This document shows positions 13,406-28,177 of a stretch of 35,453 nucleotides of DNA, piece by piece. The position numbers and the translations under genes are program-made. Source of the stretch: Gilvimarinus gilvus (GTDB lineage: Bacteria > Pseudomonadota > Gammaproteobacteria > Pseudomonadales > Cellvibrionaceae). The notes beneath the pieces were generated by a model, which did no database searches, was not told the DNA's origin, and saw only the letters and a program-made list of their open reading frames with translations. The stretch is taken from positions 1 to 35,453 of the forward strand of contig NZ_JAULRU010000428.1 of the NCBI RefSeq assembly GCF_030518155.1, read 5' to 3'. Within the stretch, counting starts at the first letter, position 1, and every line of letters begins with the position of its first letter.

Positions 13406-14764
13406 CTATACAAACCCCAAATCCACATCACTAAAATTACCCAAGTTCGGGAATGCTGTGGCGAAGTCGGAGGCGGGCAAGCCAAACCAGCTTGCGAGTG
13501 TTGCGCCGTATTGATCAACACTGGTGGTGGGAATAATACGGCCCTCACCAATGTCGTCGTCACTGTTAAGCTCCAGAGAGGGAAGGTTGCCGTAGACTTC
13601 ACCACCGTTCACGGCGCCGCCGCAAATAATTTGGTGCCCGCCCCAGGCGTGGTCGGTGCCGTCGCCGTTACTAGTGAGAGTGCGACCAAAGTCGGACATG
13701 GTAAAGGTGGTAACGTTTTCAGTCAGTGAGAGTTCTGCTAACGCTGATTGAAAGGCATTTAAGCCAGCGGAAAGTTCGCTGAAAAGTGCCGGTTGACGAT
13801 TGGCTTGATCACCGTGAGTGTCGTAGTCGCCCATACCGACGAAATAGATTTGCCGTTTTACATCAAGGGCACTGCGAGCGGAGATAAGCTTCGCGACCAT
13901 GGAAAGGTCGGTGCCGAGTTTGCCTGCCGGGAAGCGGGTATTCAGAGGTGTCTGTTGGTCGAGTGCTGATTTCACCTCGCTTGCCAATGCCCAGGCGCGC
14001 TCTTGTATACCGGCGTATTCACGTAAAAATACGTGGCTATCGGCCCCTCGCATTAACGTGCGGAACACCTGGGCGCGGGTGGTTTCGTTGGGCTCGGAGC
14101 TGTTTTCGTTAAAGTGGTTAAGCAGTTCAACACCAAAACCATTAACCGCGTACGGGAATACTGTTTGCCCACTTTGAAAAATATTGTTGCCGCTCAGGGA
14201 AATGTTCATCGACAGCTGCTGATTTACATTCATCGAACGCATTACATCTGCAGCGCGTCCGGCCCATCCTGTGGTGGCGGCATCTTCAGCAAGGGATTGC
14301 ACGAAGGTTTGTTGATCGTTATGTGAAAAAAGTTGAGGTGGCAGTTGCGAGCGGTTATTGACGTAATCGGATTTGCTGACAGGTTCAATCAACGAGCCAC
14401 AGTTGGCCAACACCGCTAGCTTTTGGTTGTTGTACAGAGATTGCAACTCGGGCATCGCCGGATGAAAACCGTACGCAGTACTGCCTGTACTCATGGGCAA
14501 CAGGTCGGCACGAGGAACAGCCAAATTTTGTCGCACGCTGGCATAGGTGTTATAGGCCGAGGTGTCGGTTGGTACCACCATGTTGTGGGAGTCGTTGCCG
14601 CCAAACAAGAATATACACACCAGCGCTTTGTAGTCGTCAGCGGCAGCAGTTTGCGCCATGGCCACTTGCATGCGGGCACTTAGGGCAGCAAAGCTGGCAC
14701 TGCCCAGGCAAGCGGCAACACCCTGACGAAGAAAGCGACGGCGTGATTTGGATATGTGAGTCAT
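13406..14764 (-). CDS. DUF1501 protein with Tat signal
   Basis: The 452-residue protein begins with a twin-arginine signal (RRRFLRQG at residues 8-15, then a hydrophobic segment to about residue 38), so it is exported folded. The body is a DUF1501 domain, a relative of the sulfatase/alkaline phosphatase fold, with typical segments LFGGNDSHNMVVPTD, TMSDFGRTLTSNGDGTDHAW and GGHQIICGGAVNG. DUF1501 genes usually travel with DUF1800 genes, as here: the DUF1800 gene ends 18 bp upstream and AGGAAAAG provides a ribosome binding site. The function of the pair is unknown. Confidence 0.92.
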   Translation of the reverse strand: MTHISKSRRRFLRQGVAACLGSASFAALSARMQVAMAQTAAADDYKALVCIFLFGGNDSHNMVVPTDTSAYNTYASVRQNLAVPRADLLPMSTGSTAYGFHPAMPELQSLYNNQKLAVLANCGSLIEPVSKSDYVNNRSQLPPQLFSHNDQQTFVQSLAEDAATTGWAGRAADVMRSMNVNQQLSMNISLSGNNIFQSGQTVFPYAVNGFGVELLNHFNENSSEPNETTRAQVFRTLMRGADSHVFLREYAGIQERAWALASEVKSALDQQTPLNTRFPAGKLGTDLSMVAKLISARSALDVKRQIYFVGMGDYDTHGDQANRQPALFSELSAGLNAFQSALAELSLTENVTTFTMSDFGRTLTSNGDGTDHAWGGHQIICGGAVNGGEVYGNLPSLELNSDDDIGEGRIIPTTSVDQYGATLASWFGLPASDFATAFPNLGNFSDVDLGFV

Positions 14765-14782
14765 CGTCTTTTCCTGTAAAGG

Positions 14783-16624
14783 TTAGCGCTGCAGTGCAAA
14801 ATACGCAGAGGCGGCAATCACACCAGCGGCCTCCTGTACTCTGAGCATACGTGAGTAATCGTTGTTTTCGCCAAATGGCAGTGCGTCGATATTTTCAATC
14901 AGTAGTTGGCGGGCGTCGTTTGGAATTTGCCCGGCGCACAGCAACAGGTTGAGCCTGTCTATCAGTGCGGCGGCATCACCGGCAATCGATTTTTCGGCGC
15001 TGACATCAATAGCCGGTGGGTGTATGTCCCAGTTGTAGCCAGCGCGCTGGGCCTGAACCCAATCGGCGTCTTTATCGCGCCAGTAAATGGCCTCTGTCAG
15101 CGAGTTGGTTTTCGCCACCATGGTACTTTCGGTATGAATCTGAAACTCCGGTGATAACAAATTTTGGTTTCTAATGGTGCCTGGGTGGGAGTAACCGGGG
15201 CGGTAGAAATTAAACACCGAAAATGAGCCGTAGGGTCGTTGCCCCAGTTTTCGGTCAGAGCCTAAATAACGAATGCGTTTTCCCACCACGGCACTTTCGT
15301 CTTCGTTATAAACGGCCGTACCCTCTGCCGGAAAGGTGCGCCATACGTTGGCGATTTGCAGTATGGGCTCGCGCAATTTACCAAAGGAGTCTGGCGCTAG
15401 TACGTGACCGCTGCGCGCCTCAATATCGGTAAGAATCGTGCGTACGACCGCTTGTAAGTCACCGCGAACGCCAAAGCCGTTGTTGTTAAACACACTGGCT
15501 ACGCGCTCTACATAGGCGGGGCTGGGGTTGCTGGTCACCAGCCTTTGGATTAATTGTTTGCTGATAAACGGGCCGACGTTGGGGTGGTTAAATAAGTTGT
15601 CCATGGCGCCGGTCATGTCCTGCTCTGCGGTTTGGCCCGCTGGCAGCACAGTGCCATTGAGTAAGGCTTTGGATTCGGTGTCGTGAATGGCCTGATACGC
15701 CTTCATTGGCAGAGCTTCGCCGATGGCATCGCTGGTCCACTCCCACCAAATGTTGGTTGTCGCAAAATTCCAGCCGGTAAACACGCGGGCAAAAGCCTTT
15801 ATGGTTTCCTGATCGTAGCTGGGAATGGGTTGACCTTGTGCGTCGGTTTTAGCCGTACCATCGAGGTTTAGCTCCACCAGGCCGATACTAAACAACTGCA
15901 TTACTTCCCGGGCGTAGTTTTCATCGGGGCGAATATTATGCTCAGCATTGGCTTTTTCGTTGCGCACCATACTAAGGTATTCGCCCATCATAGGATGCAG
16001 GGTGACGGCTTCGAGCAAATCGCGGTAATTGCCAAAGGCATGTTCGGCCAACATGTCCTGGTAACTGGCGATGCCGCGGGTGTCGTTGTACAAAACGTCG
16101 GAGACATTGGATATAACAAGTATTTGGCTCAGCGCAAAGGCTACGCGCTGACGCAATTGGTCGGGACTGCGCAGTACTACCTCCCACCAAATATCGCTGC
16201 GTTGTAAATCGCGATAGTAACCATCTGCATCGTCTATTTCAGGCGATGGTGTTGCCTCCCATCCGAGGGATTCAAAGCGCTCATCCAACAGCGGTAAGTG
16301 TAAGGTAGCGGGGGTATTGAGCTGTTCCTGCAGCCAGTCATCCTGCCCTTGATTGAGCACGGCGAGTACGCTGTCTTCGGTGGGGCCAAAGGTAGTTTGT
16401 TGTAAAAAGCGCGCGGCCGTTTTGGCTTCGTCCCAGTGTTCGTCTGCCGATAGGGGTAATTCGGCAACAGGGTCAGGCTCTGGGGGCAACTCAGGCTCTG
16501 GTTGCGGCGAAACCGGAGGATTTGCGGGATTGTTGCCGCTACCGCCTCCACCGCAGCCAGCGCTGAGTGTTGCCAAAAATATCAATAGTGCCGCTGCCGT
16601 TAGGCGGGTAATGAGCATAGTCAT
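14783..16624 (-). CDS. DUF1800 lipoprotein
   Basis: This 613-residue protein has a lipoprotein signal with lipobox LSAGC (Cys near residue 24), a Gly/Pro-rich linker and a DUF1800 domain. The domain segments include AARFLQQTTFGPT, RVAFALSQILV, ENYAREVMQLFSIGL and FARVFTGWNF. It is probably anchored in the outer or inner membrane and acts with the Tat-exported DUF1501 partner encoded directly downstream. No enzymatic activity is established for the family. The first ATG (16624) and the one two codons later are equally plausible. Confidence 0.92.
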   Translation of the reverse strand: MTMLITRLTAAALLIFLATLSAGCGGGGSGNNPANPPVSPQPEPELPPEPDPVAELPLSADEHWDEAKTAARFLQQTTFGPTEDSVLAVLNQGQDDWLQEQLNTPATLHLPLLDERFESLGWEATPSPEIDDADGYYRDLQRSDIWWEVVLRSPDQLRQRVAFALSQILVISNVSDVLYNDTRGIASYQDMLAEHAFGNYRDLLEAVTLHPMMGEYLSMVRNEKANAEHNIRPDENYAREVMQLFSIGLVELNLDGTAKTDAQGQPIPSYDQETIKAFARVFTGWNFATTNIWWEWTSDAIGEALPMKAYQAIHDTESKALLNGTVLPAGQTAEQDMTGAMDNLFNHPNVGPFISKQLIQRLVTSNPSPAYVERVASVFNNNGFGVRGDLQAVVRTILTDIEARSGHVLAPDSFGKLREPILQIANVWRTFPAEGTAVYNEDESAVVGKRIRYLGSDRKLGQRPYGSFSVFNFYRPGYSHPGTIRNQNLLSPEFQIHTESTMVAKTNSLTEAIYWRDKDADWVQAQRAGYNWDIHPPAIDVSAEKSIAGDAAALIDRLNLLLCAGQIPNDARQLLIENIDALPFGENNDYSRMLRVQEAAGVIAASAYFALQR

Positions 16625-19656: not shown

Positions 19657-20616
19657 ATGATGTTTAGTAAAAAGTTAATGGGTATGTCGACAGTAACGGC
19701 GGTTTTGATGGCAGGGTGTGCAACCGCTCCCGTCGAAGATAACCGCCTGAGTACCTTGCAGGATAAATACACCAACGTGGCTACTGTCGATAATGCTCGC
19801 GAGTATGCGCCGGTACAGCTCAAAGAGGCGGAAGAGGGGCTAGATAAACTTGAAAGGTTGATGGCATCCAATGCCAGTGAGCAGGCAATCAGGCAGCAAG
19901 TTTATTTGGTTGAGAGACAGCTCAGTATTGCCACCCAGACATCACGCATGAATAAGGCGGATGAGGTGGTGGAGCAGGCCGATGAGCGTCGTAACGAGTT
20001 ACTGTTATCCGCACGCACGCAACGCGCAGAGCGGGCGGAAGCTCTTGCGGCGGAAAAAGAACGCCAGGCACTAATGGCGGAAAAACGTGCTCAATCTGCG
20101 TTGCAAGAAGCAGAAACAGCGCAGAATCGTGCGCTACAGGCAGAGAAATCTGCGTTGGCAGCGCAGGCGTTGGCCGAGCAAATGAGCGCAAAAGCCGAGG
20201 CGCTGGAAGCCGATCTTGAAAATATTTCCACTGAGCGAACTGAACGTGGTTTGGTATTAACCCTGGGTAATATCCTGTTTGAGTTGGATGAGGCACAGAT
20301 CAAGCCTGGATCGGAACGAACGCTGGAGCGCGTTGCGACTTTTCTTAAGGAGTACCCAGACCGCGAGGTGATGATTGAAGGTTTCACCGATAGCACAGGT
20401 GATGACAGTTATAACTTAAACCTGTCGGAGCGCAGGGCCGAATCGGTTGAAGAACATTTGATTAATAATGGCGTGAAAGCGGATCGCATTGCCACTATGG
20501 GCTACGGTGAGGCGCATCCGGTTGCCAGTAACGATAACTCCGCAGGTCGACTGCAAAATAGGCGCGTCGAGATTGTGATAGGTAATCAGGGCGAAGCCGT
20601 AAAGTCACGAGAATAG
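19657..20616 (+). CDS. OmpA-family lipoprotein with DUF4398-like N-terminus
   Basis: This 319-residue protein has a lipobox (LMAGC, Cys near residue 21), a DUF4398-like helical segment (about residues 30-110), a long Ala/Glu-rich coiled coil (about 115-190) and a C-terminal OmpA domain (about 200-310). The OmpA part shows LFELDEAQIKPGSERTL, IEGFTDSTGDDSYNLNLSERR and LQNRRVEI, the residues that bind peptidoglycan diaminopimelate. It likely bridges the outer membrane and the cell wall. The first of two adjacent ATGs is taken; GGGAGA lies just upstream. Confidence 0.92.
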   Translation: MMFSKKLMGMSTVTAVLMAGCATAPVEDNRLSTLQDKYTNVATVDNAREYAPVQLKEAEEGLDKLERLMASNASEQAIRQQVYLVERQLSIATQTSRMNKADEVVEQADERRNELLLSARTQRAERAEALAAEKERQALMAEKRAQSALQEAETAQNRALQAEKSALAAQALAEQMSAKAEALEADLENISTERTERGLVLTLGNILFELDEAQIKPGSERTLERVATFLKEYPDREVMIEGFTDSTGDDSYNLNLSERRAESVEEHLINNGVKADRIATMGYGEAHPVASNDNSAGRLQNRRVEIVIGNQGEAVKSRE

Positions 20617-20675: not shown

Positions 20676-21389
20676 CTAATCGCCGCGCACATAGCGCTGA
20701 CCAAAGCGCGTTAAAATGACGGTGGCTACGCCCGCAAGTAGCCAAACGGGCGCAACCGCAACGACAAGATATACCCCATCGATCAAGCCCATGCAGGCTA
20801 TCATCCAGGGAATAATCGGAAAGCCGTAACCGCCTTCTTTATAATTTTCCGCGCGGGCGACAACGGTCACCAACAAGGTGTAAATACACTGAATAAGGCC
20901 AATGACCAGCACGGCGACAGGCAACGTGCCAGCGATGGCAAAGGCGCCGACCAGGTAGACACCGAGGCGGGTGGTCGCCATTAAAAAGACGCTGCTACTG
21001 TGTTTTTTATGCAATGTGTCGTAGGCGACAATTAACGCAAGTAAACCGCACGCGGCCCATATGCCCCGTGCGCTGGGTGCCAGCAGTAGTAAACTGAGCC
21101 CTAGCGCAAACAACCCCAGCGTGAGCGATAAAACTGTCGCGGCTTTTATTTTACCGGCGGGTATCGGGCGATAAGGTTGGCGCTCGGCATCCCAGTGGCG
21201 ATCACAGTAGTCATTCAAACACATGCCGCCGGCGTAAAAGCACGACAGCGCCGCTATCAGTATAAGCAAGGTGGTGATGGAAAAAGGGACTGCCATCGCT
21301 GCCGAGGTCAGCACACTCGCGCTTACCAGGTTCATCCAGACGGTAGGTAGGTTGCTAACGCGCCCCAAGGTCAGTGCGGTTTTAATCAT
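20676..21389 (-). CDS. UbiA-like prenyltransferase EboC
   Basis: A 237-residue membrane protein with about seven to eight helices and the UbiA-superfamily first Asp-rich motif NDYCDRHWDAE (N59, D60, D63, D67), followed by RPIPAGKI. A second polar site, AYDTLHKKHSS, replaces the classical second DxxxD motif. It is the last gene of the ebo cluster; its ATG overlaps the end of eboF by eight bases. UbiA-family enzymes attach a prenyl chain to an acceptor in the membrane, but the substrate of EboC is unknown. A membrane-bound member fits the proposed role of the cluster in moving a metabolite to the periplasm. Confidence 0.9.
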   Translation of the reverse strand: MIKTALTLGRVSNLPTVWMNLVSASVLTSAAMAVPFSITTLLILIAALSCFYAGGMCLNDYCDRHWDAERQPYRPIPAGKIKAATVLSLTLGLFALGLSLLLLAPSARGIWAACGLLALIVAYDTLHKKHSSSVFLMATTRLGVYLVGAFAIAGTLPVAVLVIGLIQCIYTLLVTVVARAENYKEGGYGFPIIPWMIACMGLIDGVYLVVAVAPVWLLAGVATVILTRFGQRYVRGD

Positions 21390-22842
21390 CTTTCTTGCGG
21401 CTCATGTCTATTGTTTCTTCTGGTTCTTTATCCGCAATTGCAGTTGCTTCAACGTCTGCCACATTGGGCGAGACCTCATTAAATATATGCTGCAGAATCA
21501 GTTCACAGACTTCGGTCGCATCCAGCTTACCTCGGGGTAATAAGTCAGGGCGACTGCTCATCAGTATAGGCGTGGAGTACTCAGAGCCGTCACTGACACC
21601 ATGTGAGCCTTTTATTTGGCTCGCATCGGTGGAAATAACATCCAACACATAGCGAAACCCCAGTTTTTTCTGCAGCACCTTCCGCGCGGCTTTTAACTTG
21701 GGGAATTTCAAGCGGGGGTCGAAAAACATTTCGCAGGGGTCAAAGCCGGGTTTTTTGTGAATCTCTACCTGGTGGGCAAAATCAGGCGCCCGATTTTCAT
21801 CGTTCCAGTAATAGTAGGTAAACCAGCTGTCGGCTTCGGCAAGCAAAATCAGCTCGCCGGCGCGTTCATGGTCCAGCCCGTACTCGGCGCGTTCGGCACC
21901 TTCAAGTACTTTGGCAACACCAGGTGTTTGTTCGAACAGCGCTTTAATTTCGGCGGTGTCTTCGGGCTTTTGTACGTAAATGTGGGATATTTGATGATCG
22001 CTCATGGCAAACGCCCGGCAGGTATCAAAATCCAGATACTCGCGGCCCAAATCCACTTTCAGCGATAGCTTGCCGGCATCGCGCAAAATTCTGTTTGGGT
22101 GCACAGGGCGGTTGACCGGTTGAATGCCGTATTCGGACAGCAATATGACATTACAACCTTGAGCTTTAAAGAACGTGAGCAAGTCGCCCACCAGATCATC
22201 AATTTCTTTTAAGTCTTTGCCAATGTCACCGTCGGGCCCAAATTTCTGCAGGCAGTAATCGAGATGCGGTAGATACACCAGTTGCAATGTTGGCTGATGT
22301 TCGCGCTCTACATGCATGGCCGCATCGGCAATCCAGCGGCTGGATTTAACGCTGGTGGCTGGCCCCCAAAAATGAAACAGCGGAAAGGTACCTAATTTTT
22401 CGGTTAGGGTGTCACGCAATTCGAGAGGAAAAGTGTAGCAGTCGGGTAATTTTTTGCCGTCAGCGCAGTACAGTGGGCGTGGGGTTAAGGTGTAGTCGGC
22501 ACCGGTCGCCATGGCGTACCACCAAAAGGTATTGGAGCAGGTGAAATCGGCATTGCGGGCCCGCCCCATGTCCCAGATTTTTGGTGCCTGAATCAGCTTA
22601 TTACTCTGGCGCCACAGCCAGACTTCGTTTTGGTCGCGGAAATACCAGCCGTTGGCGACAATGCCGTGTTCGCTCGGGCGTTTACCGGTCAAATAAGTGG
22701 CTTGGGCGCTGCAAGTGACGGCCGGGGTGACCGGTTTAATATCGGTACACTGTTGTCTGGCCAGCGTATTAATGTTGGGTGTGTGTTCGCCTAATAAATT
22801 GCGAGTCAATCCAACCACGTTTAATACAACGGTTCTTTGCAT
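21382..22842 (-). CDS. Alkaline-phosphatase-superfamily phosphodiesterase EboF
   Basis: The 486-residue protein belongs to the nucleotide pyrophosphatase/phosphodiesterase branch of the alkaline phosphatase superfamily. The nucleophile segment AVTCSAQATYLTGKRPSEHG has T43 at the usual position. Likely metal ligands occur in HLDYC, MSDHQISH and GSHGVSDGSEY. The N-terminal strand reads VVLNVVGLT, where relatives usually have an Asp in this place. No signal peptide is evident, so it seems cytoplasmic. It begins 24 bp after eboE and overlaps eboC. The substrate is unknown; a phosphate or diphosphate ester made by the other Ebo enzymes is a reasonable guess. Confidence 0.9.
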   Translation of the reverse strand: MQRTVVLNVVGLTRNLLGEHTPNINTLARQQCTDIKPVTPAVTCSAQATYLTGKRPSEHGIVANGWYFRDQNEVWLWRQSNKLIQAPKIWDMGRARNADFTCSNTFWWYAMATGADYTLTPRPLYCADGKKLPDCYTFPLELRDTLTEKLGTFPLFHFWGPATSVKSSRWIADAAMHVEREHQPTLQLVYLPHLDYCLQKFGPDGDIGKDLKEIDDLVGDLLTFFKAQGCNVILLSEYGIQPVNRPVHPNRILRDAGKLSLKVDLGREYLDFDTCRAFAMSDHQISHIYVQKPEDTAEIKALFEQTPGVAKVLEGAERAEYGLDHERAGELILLAEADSWFTYYYWNDENRAPDFAHQVEIHKKPGFDPCEMFFDPRLKFPKLKAARKVLQKKLGFRYVLDVISTDASQIKGSHGVSDGSEYSTPILMSSRPDLLPRGKLDATEVCELILQHIFNEVSPNVADVEATAIADKEPEETIDMSRKKDD

Positions 22843-22866
22843 ATGACGGCCTTACGGATAAAAAAT

Positions 22867-23991
22867 TTAGGATGCTTTGTCTGCGAGCAGGTTGCCAACC
22901 CAGGTGAGTTCACGGGCGATGTTTTCGCTGATGCTGCCGTGACGTAAATGCTCGGGAATGGCCTTAAAGCTGTAGGTTTCCACTTCCAGCGGGGTGTCGG
23001 TATCAAGCAGTGGCAGCAGTTCTATTAGAAAATCCTGAGTGCTACCGACCTCGCCTAAGTGTTCGCAGAAAATGGGAATGTGAAAGTGCACGCGGCATTC
23101 ATCGAACTGTTGGCCGTTCGCCAGTGCGCGAGCAAACTCGGGTAAGTCGGCAAAGCGCTGCAGTGCGCCATTCGCGCTGCAGCGAGCCACGGCCTGATGT
23201 AAATAAACTGGCTCATCAAACGCTAGTAGCTTTTCTATTTCCAGACCGCTGGCTTTCAGCGCGCTGGACACCTGAACCTTGCCGATGGTTATCCCGGCCG
23301 CTTTAATACGCGCGAGGCATTCGGTGGCAGTTTCAAACTCGACGGCCTGATGGCAGCAATCAAAACACAAGCCAACGTGCGTTTTCAAATGGCTGGGTAA
23401 ATTGAGCCGCTGAAAAAATTCGATGGCCTCTTCGGTGGTTTCAAGAACGCACTCCGGCTCGGGTTCAATGGCCAGTACCAGCTCAATGCCGTGCTGCTTG
23501 GTCAATTGCTGGAAGTGCTCCGCGACTTCGAGCACATGAGAACAGGCAGTGGCCCAGTCACTGTCTTTAAACGCAGGTTTAAACGCAATGGGCACGGTGG
23601 ATATGGAAATACGCTTGGCGTCTGGCTGCAAGGCAACGGCTAAATCACCCAGGCGCTTGCTGTACTCCACCCGTTCGCGTTCGCGCCAATCGGGTAGGTA
23701 GACGTTTTCTTTTACCCGGGTTTCGTGAAAGGTGCCGTAGGGAAAACCGTTTATTGTCAGCAGGTAGGCGTTGTGTTGTTTGCACCACTGCTGAAATTGT
23801 GCAATCGCAGCATCGTCCACTTCTTGTGCGGCCTGATGGGCAATTCGCAAGCCGAGGGGAAAAGCTGCATCGCCGCCTAGCTGCTGTTTAACGTCCAGCG
23901 CGTGGCTGTTGAGATTATGCATTATGTCCGCCCAGGATTCCCCCGGGTGGATATTGCTGCAGTATGTCAGCGCGCGGTTTAATGCGGCCAT
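22867..23991 (-). CDS. TIM-barrel metabolite-traffic protein EboE
   Basis: This 374-residue protein has the xylose-isomerase-like TIM-barrel fold: ISISTVPIAF, LAIEPEPECVLETTEEAI, HVGLCFDCCHQAVEFE and HFHIPIF place Glu, Asp and His residues at strand ends as metal or sugar ligands. It opens with the EboE-type ALTYCSNIHPGESW. The ATG at 23991 is preferred over an upstream TTG at 24018 because GGAGG sits just before it; it overlaps the end of eboD by 13 bases. The family is annotated for metabolite traffic because of the Nostoc work, and its reaction is not established. Confidence 0.9.
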   Translation of the reverse strand: MAALNRALTYCSNIHPGESWADIMHNLNSHALDVKQQLGGDAAFPLGLRIAHQAAQEVDDAAIAQFQQWCKQHNAYLLTINGFPYGTFHETRVKENVYLPDWRERERVEYSKRLGDLAVALQPDAKRISISTVPIAFKPAFKDSDWATACSHVLEVAEHFQQLTKQHGIELVLAIEPEPECVLETTEEAIEFFQRLNLPSHLKTHVGLCFDCCHQAVEFETATECLARIKAAGITIGKVQVSSALKASGLEIEKLLAFDEPVYLHQAVARCSANGALQRFADLPEFARALANGQQFDECRVHFHIPIFCEHLGEVGSTQDFLIELLPLLDTDTPLEVETYSFKAIPEHLRHGSISENIARELTWVGNLLADKAS

Positions 23992-25124
23992 ACGCCCTCC
24001 AGCAAATGCTGGCGGCAAGTTTCCATGGCTTTGTGGTCGATTTCATTCACCTCAATGGCGGCGCCGGCCTGCGTCAGCAGTGTGATGCATAGCTTGCCGC
24101 CCAAATGCTCGCGGAAGTCTTCCAGCGCTTTGTGAATATCGAGTGACTCCAGTGCCCGGTGGGTCAAATTAAAGCCAACACCTTCCAGGGTTTCGCGAAT
24201 ACGGTTCAACGTGGGCAGTTCGATCATGCCCTTTAAGAACGAATAAATTGAGTCGAGCGCAATACCAATGGCAACGGCTTCGCCGTGGCGCAGCTCGCTG
24301 GCTGAAATCTCTTCTAAGCGGTGCGCGCACCAGTGGCCAAAGTCCAAAGGCCGCGCGCTGCCCTGCTCGAAGGGATCGCCACTGCTACGGATATGATTGA
24401 GGTGCAACTCGGCGCAGCGGGTAATCATGTACTCGGTTTCTTGCTGACTAAAATCCGCCAAGGCCGAACGGTTTTTATGCAGCCACGTAAAAAATTCGCC
24501 ATCGCGAATCAGCGCCACTTTAATGGCTTCTGCTATGCCGCTAACGCGGTCGCGCGGAGGTAGGGTGTTTAGAAAATCGAAATCGTTAATCACCGCGAAG
24601 GGGGCGGCAAAAGTGCCAAGATAATTTTTGCGGCCACGATAGTTAATGGCATTTTTTACCCCAATGCCGGCATCGTTCTGTGCCAGCACTGTAGTGGGCA
24701 TGCGAATCAAGCGAATGCCGCGGTGGGCTGTCGCCGCCGCATAACCAATGGCATCGACCACGGCGCCGCCGCCAATTACCAGGGCAAAACTGTGGCGGTC
24801 AATGTTTTGGGTTTGGGTACGCTGGTAAAACTCGTCCACCTCGACTGGGTCAGACTTACTGATTTCCCCGCCGCGCACAATTAGCGGTGGCTCGATCAAT
24901 TCAATCACTTCATTGTGAACATCGGCATAGAACTGCAGGCGCTCGACCAAATCGGGGTGAGCTTCCAGCACATTTTTATCAATGACGGGCAGTACCCGAT
25001 GGGGGCCGACTCCTGCGCGTGACACTATATCGGTGAGTACCGTACTTTCAGGCGCTAACGTGTCCCGGTCGAAGCAGACCGGGAACGAGTAATTCATCAC
25101 AAAGGATTGATCTATTTGATACAC
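23979..25124 (-). CDS. 3-dehydroquinate-synthase-like cyclase EboD
   Basis: The 381-residue protein belongs to the sugar phosphate cyclase superfamily. It has the NAD-binding GGGAVVDAIGYAAATAHRG, the phosphate-binding KNYLGTF, a metal-binding Glu in GIAEAIKVALI, and metal-binding His residues in FGHWCAHRLEE and LRHGEAVAIG. It is not in an aroB setting, and the ebo context makes a secondary role likely: EboD proteins group with cyclases acting on sedoheptulose 7-phosphate-like or related substrates rather than with shikimate-pathway enzymes. The start is GTG at 25124, five bases after GGAGAG. It follows eboB by 18 bp. Confidence 0.9.
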   Translation of the reverse strand: MYQIDQSFVMNYSFPVCFDRDTLAPESTVLTDIVSRAGVGPHRVLPVIDKNVLEAHPDLVERLQFYADVHNEVIELIEPPLIVRGGEISKSDPVEVDEFYQRTQTQNIDRHSFALVIGGGAVVDAIGYAAATAHRGIRLIRMPTTVLAQNDAGIGVKNAINYRGRKNYLGTFAAPFAVINDFDFLNTLPPRDRVSGIAEAIKVALIRDGEFFTWLHKNRSALADFSQQETEYMITRCAELHLNHIRSSGDPFEQGSARPLDFGHWCAHRLEEISASELRHGEAVAIGIALDSIYSFLKGMIELPTLNRIRETLEGVGFNLTHRALESLDIHKALEDFREHLGGKLCITLLTQAGAAIEVNEIDHKAMETCRQHLLEGVWPH

Positions 25125-25142
25125 AAGGCTCTCCGCTTCGCT

Positions 25143-26039
25143 TTAGTTTTGCACAGGCTCATCAATACGCGGTTGTTGGCCACGCAGCACTGAGTTGTCA
25201 CTAAAGCTTTGGCTCTGGTCGATGACGGGGTCGCGCATAAGTTCATCGACGTCGATTTGCCCTGATTGCGCGTAAGCGTCAATGGCATTTTGCCAGCAGG
25301 TCAGCTCAATCGCGCTTTGTTCGATACCGCGCTCTTGCATTAGGTGCGCTGTTTTCGGTACAGACAAAGGATCGCTCACACCCCAATCGGCCGAGCTGTC
25401 GACAATCAGCCGGTCGGGCCCGTATTGGCGAACAATTTCGACCATGCGTTCAGAGCCCATTTTGGTATTGGGATAAATGGTGAAAGCGGCCCAGGCTCCG
25501 GCATCGAGGACAGCCTGCACGGTTTCTTCGTTGTTGTGATCGATAACCAGTTTTTCCATTGGCACGCCAATTTCACGAGCCACATCAATGGAGCGGATAA
25601 TGCCGTTTTTCTTGTCGCGGTGTGGTGAGTGCACCATTACCACCATGTCGTGGTCGACGGCAAATTGCAGCTGGTGCTGGTATACCCACTCCTCAGCGGG
25701 GGTAATTTCGTCGTAGCCAATTTCACCGATGGCCACTACGCCTTCTTTCAGCGCAAAGTGGGGTAAAAGTTCCAGCGCTTCGCGTGCCAGCCCTTCGTTA
25801 TTGGCCTCTTTGGAGTTCACGCCTATGGTGCAGTAGTGCGCTATGCCGAACTGGGATGCGCGAAAGCGCTCCCAACCCACTAAGGTGGCAAAGTAATCGA
25901 CAAAACTGCCGACGTTAGTGCGCGGTTGCCCCATCCAAAAGGCGGGCTCAATGACCGCGCGAATACCGGCAGCGGCCATGTTCTGGTAATCGTCGGTGGT
26001 GCGGCTCACCATATGAATATGTGGATCAAAAAATCTCAT
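25143..26039 (-). CDS. TatD-like metal-dependent hydrolase EboB
   Basis: A 298-residue TIM-barrel hydrolase with the amidohydrolase/TatD opening FDPHIHM (H7 and H9), then a metal Glu in GEIGYDE, His in MVHSPHRDK, His in IDHNNEE and Asp in VDSSADWG, which together form the usual two-metal site. TatD relatives hydrolyse DNA or small molecules, but EboB forms its own group and its substrate is unknown. Its ATG overlaps the eboA stop by four bases (ATGA), a sign of coupled translation. Confidence 0.9.
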   Translation of the reverse strand: MRFFDPHIHMVSRTTDDYQNMAAAGIRAVIEPAFWMGQPRTNVGSFVDYFATLVGWERFRASQFGIAHYCTIGVNSKEANNEGLAREALELLPHFALKEGVVAIGEIGYDEITPAEEWVYQHQLQFAVDHDMVVMVHSPHRDKKNGIIRSIDVAREIGVPMEKLVIDHNNEETVQAVLDAGAWAAFTIYPNTKMGSERMVEIVRQYGPDRLIVDSSADWGVSDPLSVPKTAHLMQERGIEQSAIELTCWQNAIDAYAQSGQIDVDELMRDPVIDQSQSFSDNSVLRGQQPRIDEPVQN

Positions 26040-26947
26040 GCCTGTGTCTCACTGTTGTCTGCCGTTAGTTGGGCAAAGTGAATGTTGTCGGTCTGGCCGT
26101 TTTGGGCCGCTTGCAGCGCGCTAGTGACGCTAGTGTCTATTGAGTCTGCACCGAGTTGTTCGGCTACTGCGACCAGATTACAGCGGGCCAACCCCAGTAC
26201 AATAGCGGCGTGTTGACCACTGTTGGCAGCGGCCCAGGCTCTGAGGGCCAAGGCGCTGGTGCGTTCGTTATCGTGAGGTCCCAGGCAGAGCCACAGGCCG
26301 TTGTTGATGGCGCGTCCGGCACTTTCGCGCTCCTCGGCAAAATCCAGCACCATGCGGGTTAGGTCTTGGCTGCGCCTGTTATCTAAGCCTAGCACTCGCC
26401 ACAGGGGCAGTTCCAAAAATAGGCTCTTCATAACCAGCTGGTTCCAGGCGGTATCGTCAAAGTGCTGTACCGGGTATGGGGTATCCAGAGCGATAGTGGC
26501 GAATACATTGTTCATGTTGGTGCGACAACCCTCGCCGGCGCGCCAGACAAAACGCTCGCCCGCTGGCAGTAATGCCAGAGCCCGATACAACGCGCAGGTT
26601 TCCCCCTCGTCGGCATAGACGAATTGGGCCTCAAAATCCTCCGCAAAGCTTACTTCGTTTAGATCGCAGCGGGCGGTAATTAATCCGACTCGCAACAGCT
26701 CCAGCAAGTTCCAACCGCGCATGTCGATGCTTACGCCGAGTTCAGCAATCGCGTCAATTTCCTCTGGGCTGAGCTCCAGGGGCGTGCGCTTGGCGTGGCG
26801 ACTGGCCAGCGCAATGAGTGCCGCAAAACGGTGAGTACTGACGCCTGCGGTCAGTTCATCGCGGCTTTTCTGCCAAAATGCTAAGGCCGTGTCCGCAAGG
26901 CGCGGGGCTAGCAAGGTTTCTAGAGTGTTGGTTATGGATTGGCTCAT
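26036..26947 (-). CDS. EboA domain protein
   Basis: The first gene of the ebo cluster encodes a 303-residue, soluble-looking, helix-rich protein without recognised catalytic motifs. Segments such as RGWNLLELLRVGLITARCD, ERFVWRAGEGCRTNMNNVFATIA and FDDTAWNQLVMKSLFLELPL are in the style of EboA proteins, which often contain helical-repeat-like stretches. The ATG at 26947 is chosen; the frame also stays open to a TTG at 26986, but that part lies inside the miniature element. There is no strong ribosome binding site at either. Its start codon is only nine bases from the end of that element. Confidence 0.85.
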   Translation of the reverse strand: MSQSITNTLETLLAPRLADTALAFWQKSRDELTAGVSTHRFAALIALASRHAKRTPLELSPEEIDAIAELGVSIDMRGWNLLELLRVGLITARCDLNEVSFAEDFEAQFVYADEGETCALYRALALLPAGERFVWRAGEGCRTNMNNVFATIALDTPYPVQHFDDTAWNQLVMKSLFLELPLWRVLGLDNRRSQDLTRMVLDFAEERESAGRAINNGLWLCLGPHDNERTSALALRAWAAANSGQHAAIVLGLARCNLVAVAEQLGADSIDTSVTSALQAAQNGQTDNIHFAQLTADNSETQA

Positions 26948-26955
26948 ACTATTTA

Positions 26956-27194
26956 GGGCCTGTTTATACTCATAAAATACAGCCAATTGCGACCAAAAAT
27001 TCGCCCGTTAAGGCGCTGGGGCCGAAGGCGCCGCACCGTGGCGGTTTGGTAGCCGCAACCCGAAGGGCTGGAGCCAGGTTTGTTCCTGCCTTGCTGCCGG
27101 TCGCTCATTGGGAATAGCCCAAAGGTCTTCACGGTGCAGAGTGGGAACCAAGGCTGGCTTCCAGCAGGCGTATTCAAGCAGAGTGAACAGGCCC
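26956..27194. mobile_element. Miniature inverted-repeat element with GGGCCTGTT ends
   Basis: GGGCCTGTT at 26956-26964 is mirrored by AACAGGCCC at 27186-27194, and similarity of the two ends continues imperfectly for about 30 bases inward (both reach AATAC). TA flanks each side, as a possible target duplication. A nested GCACCGTG/CACGGTGC pair lies inside (around 27035 and 27132). There is no transposase gene. The element fills most of the space between eboA and djlA, so the ebo promoter must lie in it or have been moved by it. It is a different family from the CAGGCTGTTGAAAA elements. Confidence 0.7.
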
Positions 27195-27373
27195 TAGATC
27201 TATCGCAATGGCGAGATTATACGGAAAGGGGTGTTTGTTATCGAGTTGCAAAGATGCAACAAAAGGCCAGAATCCGTAAAGTTTTGTGTGGATCATCGGA
27301 CTGATACCGCCTGCAGGGCACTGGGCTCTGTATGATAAGCTTAGCCCTTTGCGGAATACTGAAGACAGGATAA

Positions 27374-28177
27374 ATGATGGGAAAGCTTATAGGCGGTGCA
27401 ATTGGTTTTGTACTGTTTAACATTGTTGGTGCGGTGCTGGGCGTGTTTCTCGGCCATATGTTCGATAAGGGATACGCCGCCAACACAGCGCGGGTGACGC
27501 CTGAGGAGCGCGATGCGCTCACCAAGAGCTTCTTTGAGACGACCTTTACCCTATTAGGTTATTTGGCCAAGGCCGATGGTCGTGTTAGCGAGGCGGAAGT
27601 GGCGGGCACTGAGCAGCTGATGGGGCAAATGCGTTTGTCGCAGGAGCAGCGGGCAGAGGCCATTGCGCTGTTTAAGCAAGGCTCAGCCAAGGGGTTTGAG
27701 CCCACTAAGGTATTGCGTGATTTTCGCGCTCGCTGTGGTCGCAATAAGAATCTGGTGCAAATGCTCCTGACTTATTTAGTGAATCTGGCGCTGGCTGATG
27801 GCCAGTTTGACGCGGCGGAGGAGCGCGTACTGCGAGAGGTTGCCGCAGGTCTTGGGGTGAATGGCTTTGCCTTCGAGCAGCTGATGCGCATGATTAAAGC
27901 GCAAAATAGCTTCTCCAGCAGTGGCGGTTACCGCCAATCCGGCGGTGCGACACAGCAGTCCAGTGCCGATGAACTAGCTCGAGCCTACGATGCGCTCGGC
28001 GTGTCAGCCAGCGCCAGTGATGCGGAAGTTAAGCGCGCGTATCGCAAATTGATGAGTCAGTACCACCCCGATAAGCTCGCCGGCCAAGGGTTACCTGAAG
28101 ATGCCGTTAATGCCGCGACCGAGCGCTCCAAGGAGATTCAGGTGGCCTATGATCTGGTTAAGAAATCACGCGCTTAG
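27374..28177 (+). CDS. Membrane-anchored co-chaperone DjlA
   Basis: DjlA is an inner-membrane J-protein that stimulates DnaK. The 267-residue protein has the usual three parts: a Gly-rich N-terminal transmembrane helix (GKLIGGAIGFVLFNIVGAVL, residues 3-22), a central TerB-like domain (about 50-180), and a C-terminal J-domain (about 202-267) with the essential HPD in SQYHPDKLAG. AGGA precedes the ATG at 27374; a second ATG follows at once. It is divergent from the ebo operon across the miniature element. Confidence 0.95.
   Translation: MMGKLIGGAIGFVLFNIVGAVLGVFLGHMFDKGYAANTARVTPEERDALTKSFFETTFTLLGYLAKADGRVSEAEVAGTEQLMGQMRLSQEQRAEAIALFKQGSAKGFEPTKVLRDFRARCGRNKNLVQMLLTYLVNLALADGQFDAAEERVLREVAAGLGVNGFAFEQLMRMIKAQNSFSSSGGYRQSGGATQQSSADELARAYDALGVSASASDAEVKRAYRKLMSQYHPDKLAGQGLPEDAVNAATERSKEIQVAYDLVKKSRA

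Follow-up and report, generated by a model that had tools for sequence, protein, structure and literature searches.

An ABDEFC-type ebo operon with no linked partner pathway in Gilvimarinus gilvus

Introduction

The ebo genes are widespread and are required for scytonemin export (PMC6282210). The work that named them defined six families, put forward the isoprenoid-cyclitol idea and described eboA-B-D-E-F-C (ABDEFC) as one arrangement found outside Bacteroidetes and Cyanobacteria (Yurchenko et al. 2016, PMC5133447). A 2018 study of ebo deletions in Nostoc punctiforme addressed export, proposed a lipid-carrier model and discussed the EDB cluster of Pseudomonas fluorescens NZI7 (PMC6282210). In N. 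punctiforme, where ebo lies distant from the scytonemin genes, losing any one of five ebo genes leaves the scytonemin monomer in the cytoplasm alone, whereas a scyE mutant holds it in both compartments (PMC6282210). ScyE is described as a beta-propeller protein with a predicted signal peptide (PMC4870267, PMC2726228), and in E. coli membranes the Maribacter EboC transfers a farnesyl group to quinolines (PMC9235831); the related literature also includes PMC9655573 and PMC6092422.

Here we describe a stretch of 35,453 nucleotides from Gilvimarinus gilvus (Cellvibrionaceae; contig NZ_JAULRU010000428.1), hereafter the window, whose minus strand carries, at positions 20676-26947, an intact ABDEFC-type ebo operon to which no partner pathway is linked. 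Since the window spans the whole contig, some partner families were also sought across the whole genome.

Results

An initial annotation, made from the letters alone, had read positions 20676-26947 as six tightly packed genes matching the six Ebo families, and the frames, profile matches and coordinates bear this out. All six frames are open and lie on the minus strand, with intergenic distances of -4 (A/B), +18 (B/D), -40 (D/E), +24 (E/F) and -8 bases (F/C), of which the D/E overlap shrinks to about -13 if the likely ATG of eboE is used. eboA (26036-26947) encodes 303 amino acids (aa) from an ATG that was chosen over a longer TTG frame beginning at 26986 by comparison with relatives, and the operon end at 26947 is consistent with this start. 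eboB (25143-26039) encodes a 298-aa TatD-like metallohydrolase with most metal ligands retained, eboD (23979-25124) a 381-aa sugar phosphate cyclase, and eboE (22867-23991) a xylose isomerase-like TIM barrel whose likely start, judged by alignment, is the ATG at 23991, the longest frame running from 24018. They are followed by eboF (21382-22842), for a 486-aa protein of phosphodiesterase fold in which the majority of zinc ligands are substituted, and eboC (20676-21389), for a short UbiA-type prenyltransferase of 237 aa that lacks one transmembrane hairpin.

Pfam assigns five of the six proteins, at superfamily level (EboC to UbiA, 69.6 bits; EboF to Phosphodiest, PF01663, 195.6 bits against a cut-off of 23; EboE to the xylose isomerase-like family, 46.4 bits; EboD to DHQ_synthase and DHQS_C, 111.7 and 108.8 bits; EboB to TatD, 48.3 bits), and has no match for EboA. 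In NCBIfam, EboE passes the TIM_EboE equivalog NF035939 (421.7 bits, cut-off 250) and EboA passes the EboA domain NF035938 (140.5 bits, cut-off 50), so that the profile searches proposed with the initial annotation lead for these two proteins to Ebo families and not to unrelated ones. EboA falls below the cut-off of the stricter EboA family NF035937 (163.2 bits against 320) and is thus an EboA-domain protein outside that model; EboC stays below the cut-off of the EboC equivalog NF035940 (78.2 bits against 250), its best match being the SCO3242 family (99.5 bits against a cut-off of 260); the sole model that EboD passes is PRK06203, which carries the name '3-dehydroquinate synthase' (525 bits, cut-off 333); and no NCBIfam model exceeds its cut-off for EboB or EboF. 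The window thus has homologues of eboA to eboF clustered on one strand, as in an ebo operon, and the identical six-gene order in all six further loci of the genus (L013-L018) excludes a chance arrangement. The Ebo proteins are about 57 to 93% identical to their counterparts in these loci.

EboE scores above cut-off in seven of eight genomes of the genus, 7 of 293 genomes of the order and 3 of 398 genomes in a phylum-wide draw, the window's own genome being counted each time; ebo is a genus trait, yet rare in the order. The survey of related neighbourhoods envisaged by the initial annotation found the ABDEFC order beside djlA in all six other genus loci, as in the window, where djlA (27374-28177, plus strand; NCBIfam DjlA, 303.8 bits) and an OmpA-type lipoprotein gene recognised by Pfam (19657-20616, plus strand) flank the module. 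The eighth genus genome, G006, has no ebo, and there djlA (90% identical) adjoins the OmpA lipoprotein gene, about 340 bases apart; this clean empty site defines the ends of the ebo module and leaves both flanking genes outside it. The position of ebo beside this pair stands as first described; the two genes are rejected as functional partners, being adjacent in G006 although ebo is absent.

Marinimicrobium and Thalassocella, both from Cellvibrionaceae, are the closest named relatives in the EboE tree; after them come Burkholderiaceae, a Steroidobacter metagenome-assembled genome (MAG) and deltaproteobacterial MAGs. One locus from another family of the same order (L023) joins the genus before Marinimicrobium (starred, support 97), a grouping that suggests transfer. 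The tree was built by a quick method; L022 is flagged in it as a long branch, the composition of 13 rows is odd, and its 30-row clade has a support of 92, unstarred.

Does the operon serve a pathway encoded nearby? The initial annotation had seen no polyketide, peptide or indole pathway, and none turned up when 28 of the window's 54 frames were scanned with Pfam (those of at least 100 aa, the others being mostly small or overlapping); there is also no tRNA within the window. None of the seven genus loci has a surveyed partner family within 5 kb of ebo. Of the families that recur beside ebo elsewhere, those sought genome-wide were PF12902, VioB-N-like, TMEM220, the ScyE family and glucose/sorbosone dehydrogenase (GSDH). 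The eight genus genomes encode no ferritin-like PF12902, VioB-N-like or TMEM220 protein and no ScyE-family match above cut-off, and the VioB-like and ferritin-like genes of the type seen in Burkholderiaceae are missing from the window genome. Across 21 whole genomes, PF12902 was found in none, the ScyE family in none above and in 19 below cut-off, and TMEM220 in three. These three all carry ebo and lie outside the genus; TMEM220 sits about 12 kb from ebo in G215, about 14 kb from it in G294 and on another contig in G155. Among 13 genomes, VioB-N-like matches occur in G153 alone. All 21 genomes, ebo-bearing or not, have GSDH matches, whose presence is therefore uninformative; with two to six of them in every one of the eight genus genomes, the ebo-less G006 included, the GSDH genes of the window's own genome are unsupported as a missing partner. 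Also rejected as an obligatory partner was the DUF1501/DUF1800 pair at 13406-16624, 4 kb from eboC. DUF1800 exceeds its cut-off in 7 of the 21 genomes and in four of the seven ebo-bearing genus genomes, lying close to ebo in G000, G002 and G004 and on a separate contig in G007; in G215 and G294 it is about 27 and 31 kb away.

The claim that ebo has no partner pathway thus holds for the genus of the window and fails for ebo generally, where 42 of 92 loci have at least one partner family within 5 kb. These 92 loci are the window, 11 others and 80 survey loci, the last being the best 80 of at least 576 EboE matches; they are not a random sample, possibly omit close kin of the window genome and include no cyanobacterium by title, and many end at contig ends, with only about 304 kb of flank beyond 5 kb. 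Flanking frames were clustered without prior choice, representatives were named by Pfam or NCBIfam, and families were recounted with profiles built from and searched in the same 92 loci, so that names derive from representatives only. Within 5 kb of ebo, GSDH occurs at 26 of the 92 loci by profile (an initial single-linkage count gave 28) and the ScyE family at 3, which places beta-propeller oxidoreductases at 29; TMEM220 occurs at 18, cytochrome c at 15, an isopentenyl diphosphate (IPP)-isomerase-like NUDIX protein at 10, VioB-N-like proteins at 6 and ferritin-like PF12902 at 5. In nine loci the IPP-isomerase-like gene lies at most 30 bp from ebo genes or overlaps them; its name comes from one representative at 98.3 bits, below the cut-off of 105.8, and such a neighbour would fit the need for a prenyl donor.

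Most of these families are densest beside ebo. Per Mb at 0-1.5, 1.5-5 and more than 5 kb from ebo genes, frame densities are 89.8, 10.3 and 0 for GSDH, 62.2, 0 and 0 for TMEM220, 48.4, 4.1 and 3.3 for cytochrome c, 31.1, 2.1 and 0 for the IPP-isomerase-like family, 27.6, 0 and 3.3 for VioB-N-like and 10.4, 0 and 3.3 for ScyE-like frames; unlike most partners, ferritin-like frames peak at 1.5-5 kb (0, 14.4 and 0). For scale, the 21 whole genomes, about 90 Mb, contain 74 GSDH matches. GSDH presence changes at least 17 times on the EboE tree, a figure inflated by cut contigs, and therefore does not reflect a single inherited neighbourhood. By a crude hydrophobicity rule, a signal-like start is seen in 22 of 31 GSDH, 3 of 4 ScyE-like and 16 of 17 cytochrome frames.

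Partner absence is a feature of this lineage; some relatives in the same EboE clade have partners. In three of these non-cyanobacterial operons, eboB and eboD have the gene of a ScyE-family propeller between them (L030:7321-8814, L032:6773-8851 and L034:7319-8851); the propellers score 88.8, 59.2 and 74.3 bits, and one of the three passes the cut-off of 80. TMEM220 is fused ahead of the propeller in L032 (by Pfam) and L034 (by our own profile) and is a separate frame preceding it in L030. VioB-N-like and ferritin-like genes accompany all five Burkholderiaceae loci of the clade (L027, L028, L029, L031 and L033), where VioB is matched only weakly (41.6 bits for L027 and none for L033, with 35.0 bits for L022, against a cut-off of 1250) and the ferritin-like name comes from one L028 protein at 190 bits. 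The two proteins flanking these Burkholderiaceae loci resemble a split VioB. In G153, from the window's order, the ebo genes are arranged as DCABEF and are followed on the same strand by genes of VioB-N-like and ScyE-like type. Separately, two loci have a giant frame near ebo (L019:1-4980 and L020:14995-19899) adjoined by a gene for an HXXSHH protein; the domains recognised, in L019 only, are SGL, GSDH, cellulose-binding, cytochrome and PSD3/4/5/PSCyt3.

The residues of the Ebo proteins refine two further labels of the initial annotation. EboF, taken there for a phosphodiesterase, is by its residues not a normal one. It aligns to nucleotide pyrophosphatase/phosphodiesterase structures, over an N-terminal stretch at 18.4 bits and a second stretch that scores only 3.9 bits and whose column mapping hence rests on motifs. 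Four of the six columns that we take to be zinc ligands are substituted in essentially all 77 sequences (Val in 76, with one gap; Gln in 77; Glu in 76; Tyr in 77). Retained are the nucleophile Thr in 76 (one gap) and, in all 77, Asp195 and His414, the latter in a column that we likewise assume to correspond; His283, His287 and His325 are also invariant. The replaced ligands argue against the phosphodiesterase role assumed in pathway sketches, and possible roles for EboF are those of a binding protein, a one-metal enzyme or a protein that uses a new site. For EboE, the earlier label of isomerase denotes only a fold class, the xylose isomerase-like TIM barrel.

A structure model of EboC, built from the window and 52 of 69 reference sequences, has the UbiA fold, and the first Asp-rich motif, NDxxDxxxD, is present in 81 of 81 sequences. 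The second Asp-rich motif of the UbiA superfamily, DxxxD, is missing across the EboC set, with T-x-x-A-(K/R)-x-E instead and Glu in 76 of 81. In the window EboC, one membrane hairpin is gone through an internal loss of about 50 residues. The set of short EboC proteins was compiled by hand; L033 (245 residues) was taken as short, and L076 (contig end) and L049 (intermediate length) were excluded.

The predicted structure of EboA, from 56 sequences, is all helical (pLDDT 95.3, pTM 0.91), with structural matches that are mostly HEAT/ARM solenoids and statistically without force; this predicted helical protein agrees with the earlier suggestion of an EboA scaffold with TPR-like helices (PMC6282210). 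Eight other loci, in which no eboA is recognised (L036-L040, L066, L079 and L082), have a frame of about 100 aa, longer in L036 and L037, that adjoins or overlaps ebo genes; it is probably EboG, and Herpetosiphon is described as an eboG holder (PMC5133447). EboB has as its nearest solved structure AF_1765 (3guw). It conserves H7, H9, E106, H137 and H168, presumably the TatD metal ligands, in 75 of 75 sequences, and aligned with the final Asp of TatD-type sites is Ser216; two residues further, Asp218 is invariant in all 75.

In EboD, E195, D257 and H276 are present in 80 of 80 sequences and H260 in 79 (one gap). At D257, four aligned dehydroquinate synthases have Asn and the cyclase 4p53 has Asp, and at the second Ser of the dehydroquinate synthase stretch DSSVGG, EboD has Gly in 74 of 80. 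AroB-type NLGH and DSSVGG stretches are absent from the window EboD, which has DFGH and DAGIG instead, resembling 4p53; of the 80 sequences, 45 have Ser for the Ala of DAGIG and 18 have Tyr for the Phe of DFGH. In sulfate reducers (L046 and L057, as well as the short L041 and L052), only eboD and eboE are recognised in the available DNA, which hints at consecutive catalytic steps of EboD and EboE.

Upstream of eboA, comparison of genus loci points to a promoter-like site at 27216-27244 on the minus strand, where the four aligned loci (window, L013, L016 and L018) share an identical CGTATAAT around the -10 hexamer. The site gains weight only from this comparison and not from the promoter scan, which was at chance level (4 found against 4.9 expected); the terminator scan was at or near chance as well (13 against 9.8). 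Between this site and the eboA start lies an insertion of about 244 bp with imperfect 30-nt inverted ends (26951-27200), present in the window, absent from the other three loci and represented elsewhere in the genome by two short partial matches only. It may alter eboA expression in the window strain.

Discussion

What does a bare six-gene operon make? We give roughly an even chance to a self-contained pathway whose putative product, a membrane molecule of prenylated cyclitol type, is used on the periplasmic side. The initial annotation had likewise proposed that the set makes its own membrane-linked molecule or carrier, which fits a genus without partners; as an idea it is not new, having been published in 2016 and 2018 (PMC5133447, PMC6282210). 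In the pathway that we infer, from substrate and reactions to product and its location, EboD would form a cyclitol by ring closure of a C7 sugar phosphate, which is probably sedoheptulose 7-phosphate; EboE and EboB would modify the cyclitol, and EboC would join a prenyl chain to it in the membrane. The predicted helical solenoid of EboA could keep the enzymes together, EboF might bind or act on the head group through its altered site, and the prenylated product would reach the periplasmic face of the inner membrane. In other lineages, propeller oxidoreductases, cytochrome c or TMEM220 proteins might then use it, as their own substrate or as the carrier of a second compound. Direct support extends to gene content and order, the residues, the UbiA-fold model of EboC, the helical model of EboA, conservation in the genus and the recurrence of partners elsewhere.

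We favor this self-contained pathway because seven of the eight genus genomes have ebo without a linked pathway while G006 has an empty site, because EboD shares DAGIG and DFGH with 4p53 and EboC combines an invariant first Asp-rich motif with the UbiA fold, and because the density of GSDH, TMEM220 and cytochrome c falls with distance from ebo. The missing partner families in the window genome also accord with a product that the six genes make on their own. From published work we add that ebo losses in Nostoc retain the monomer and that the EboC of Maribacter farnesylates quinolines (PMC6282210, PMC9235831). Two points weigh against it: 50 of the 92 loci have no such partner in reach, and, besides in-vitro prenylation by EboC, the accessible literature establishes no reaction of the set.

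More tentatively, and with less than an even chance, ebo could be a portable supplier of one prenylated cyclitol-type membrane molecule to which lineages add a periplasmic oxidation module that uses it, of ScyE- or GSDH-type propeller, cytochrome c or TMEM220, with EboF repurposed without its two-zinc site and the Cellvibrionaceae operon as the bare core. If so, scytonemin export would be one instance of a general system for membrane-coupled oxidation in the periplasm, and the bare core would allow the product itself to be isolated. The partner survey offers a concrete guess for the product's site of action, periplasmic oxidation, and a bare operon together with an ebo-less member of the genus makes the product searchable by strain comparison, free of noise from a partner pathway.

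Among the alternatives, the one that survives best, though we consider it rather unlikely, is that ebo helps the periplasmic passage of one small molecule whose genes lie elsewhere in the genome, in the manner of N. punctiforme. It has that precedent and the Pseudomonas EDB cluster with its indole products behind it (PMC6282210), as well as the VioB-like and ferritin-like genes near ebo in all five Burkholderiaceae loci of the window's EboE clade. It sits poorly with eight genus genomes that have neither PF12902, VioB-N-like, TMEM220 nor above-cut-off ScyE proteins, and with GSDH matches in all 21 genomes, with or without ebo.

Improbable, in our view, is that the ebo product is a redox-active lipid or head group that a GSDH or ScyE propeller oxidises, passing electrons to cytochrome c, and that the Nostoc defect is indirect. 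The substrates of glucose/sorbosone dehydrogenases are hydroxyl or aldehyde groups of sugars, which speaks for such a scheme, as do the propellers and cytochromes found within 5 kb (29 and 15 of the 92 loci) with their decay over distance. The functional diversity of these propellers and the lack of a linked one in the window's genus speak against it, as do the compartments in which the Nostoc monomer is found, the cytoplasm in ebo mutants and both in the scyE mutant (PMC6282210).

We attach very little probability to EboD as a second dehydroquinate synthase, with the operon belonging to ordinary aromatic or quinone metabolism: the top structure scores in the Protein Data Bank (PDB) are dehydroquinate synthases and PRK06203 bears that name, but Asp257 and the Gly in DSSVGG depart from those enzymes, and EboD forms a separate clade in the 2016 tree (PMC5133447). 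That the window strain's operon is poorly expressed or decaying, its promoter-like site parted from the eboA start by an insertion with inverted ends that three sister loci lack, is scarcely to be expected of six open frames with about 57 to 93% identity to L013-L018.

Already published are the ABDEFC order, gammaproteobacterial ebo (as in EDB) and the proposal that the product is a lipid carrier or prenylated cyclitol (PMC5133447, PMC6282210). In the open-licence literature we found nothing on GSDH, TMEM220 or IPP isomerase beside ebo, nor on ScyE beside non-cyanobacterial ebo, EboF zinc ligands or a short EboC, which is weak evidence of absence. The partner genes at 42 of 92 loci, the replacement of EboF zinc ligands and the short EboC go beyond published work as far as the accessible texts extend.

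The window shares all six genes and their order with the ABDEFC operons of PMC5133447, and differs in its short EboC with one hairpin fewer and in belonging to a genus that the accessible text there does not mention. With the N. punctiforme ebo genes it has homologues of EboA, B, C, E and F in common; that system serves scytonemin, is induced by UVA, has eboD nearby in the opposite direction and a copy in the scytonemin region (PMC6282210), whereas the window has eboD within the operon and no ScyE-family gene above cut-off. The EDB cluster of P. fluorescens NZI7 is, like the window, a gammaproteobacterial full ebo set, and differs in its additional genes and its tie to nematode repellence and indole products (PMC6282210). 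Finally, the window EboC and the UbiA-297/EboC of Maribacter are both UbiA-type prenyltransferases with an Asp-rich motif, of 237 and 299 aa, respectively (PMC9235831).

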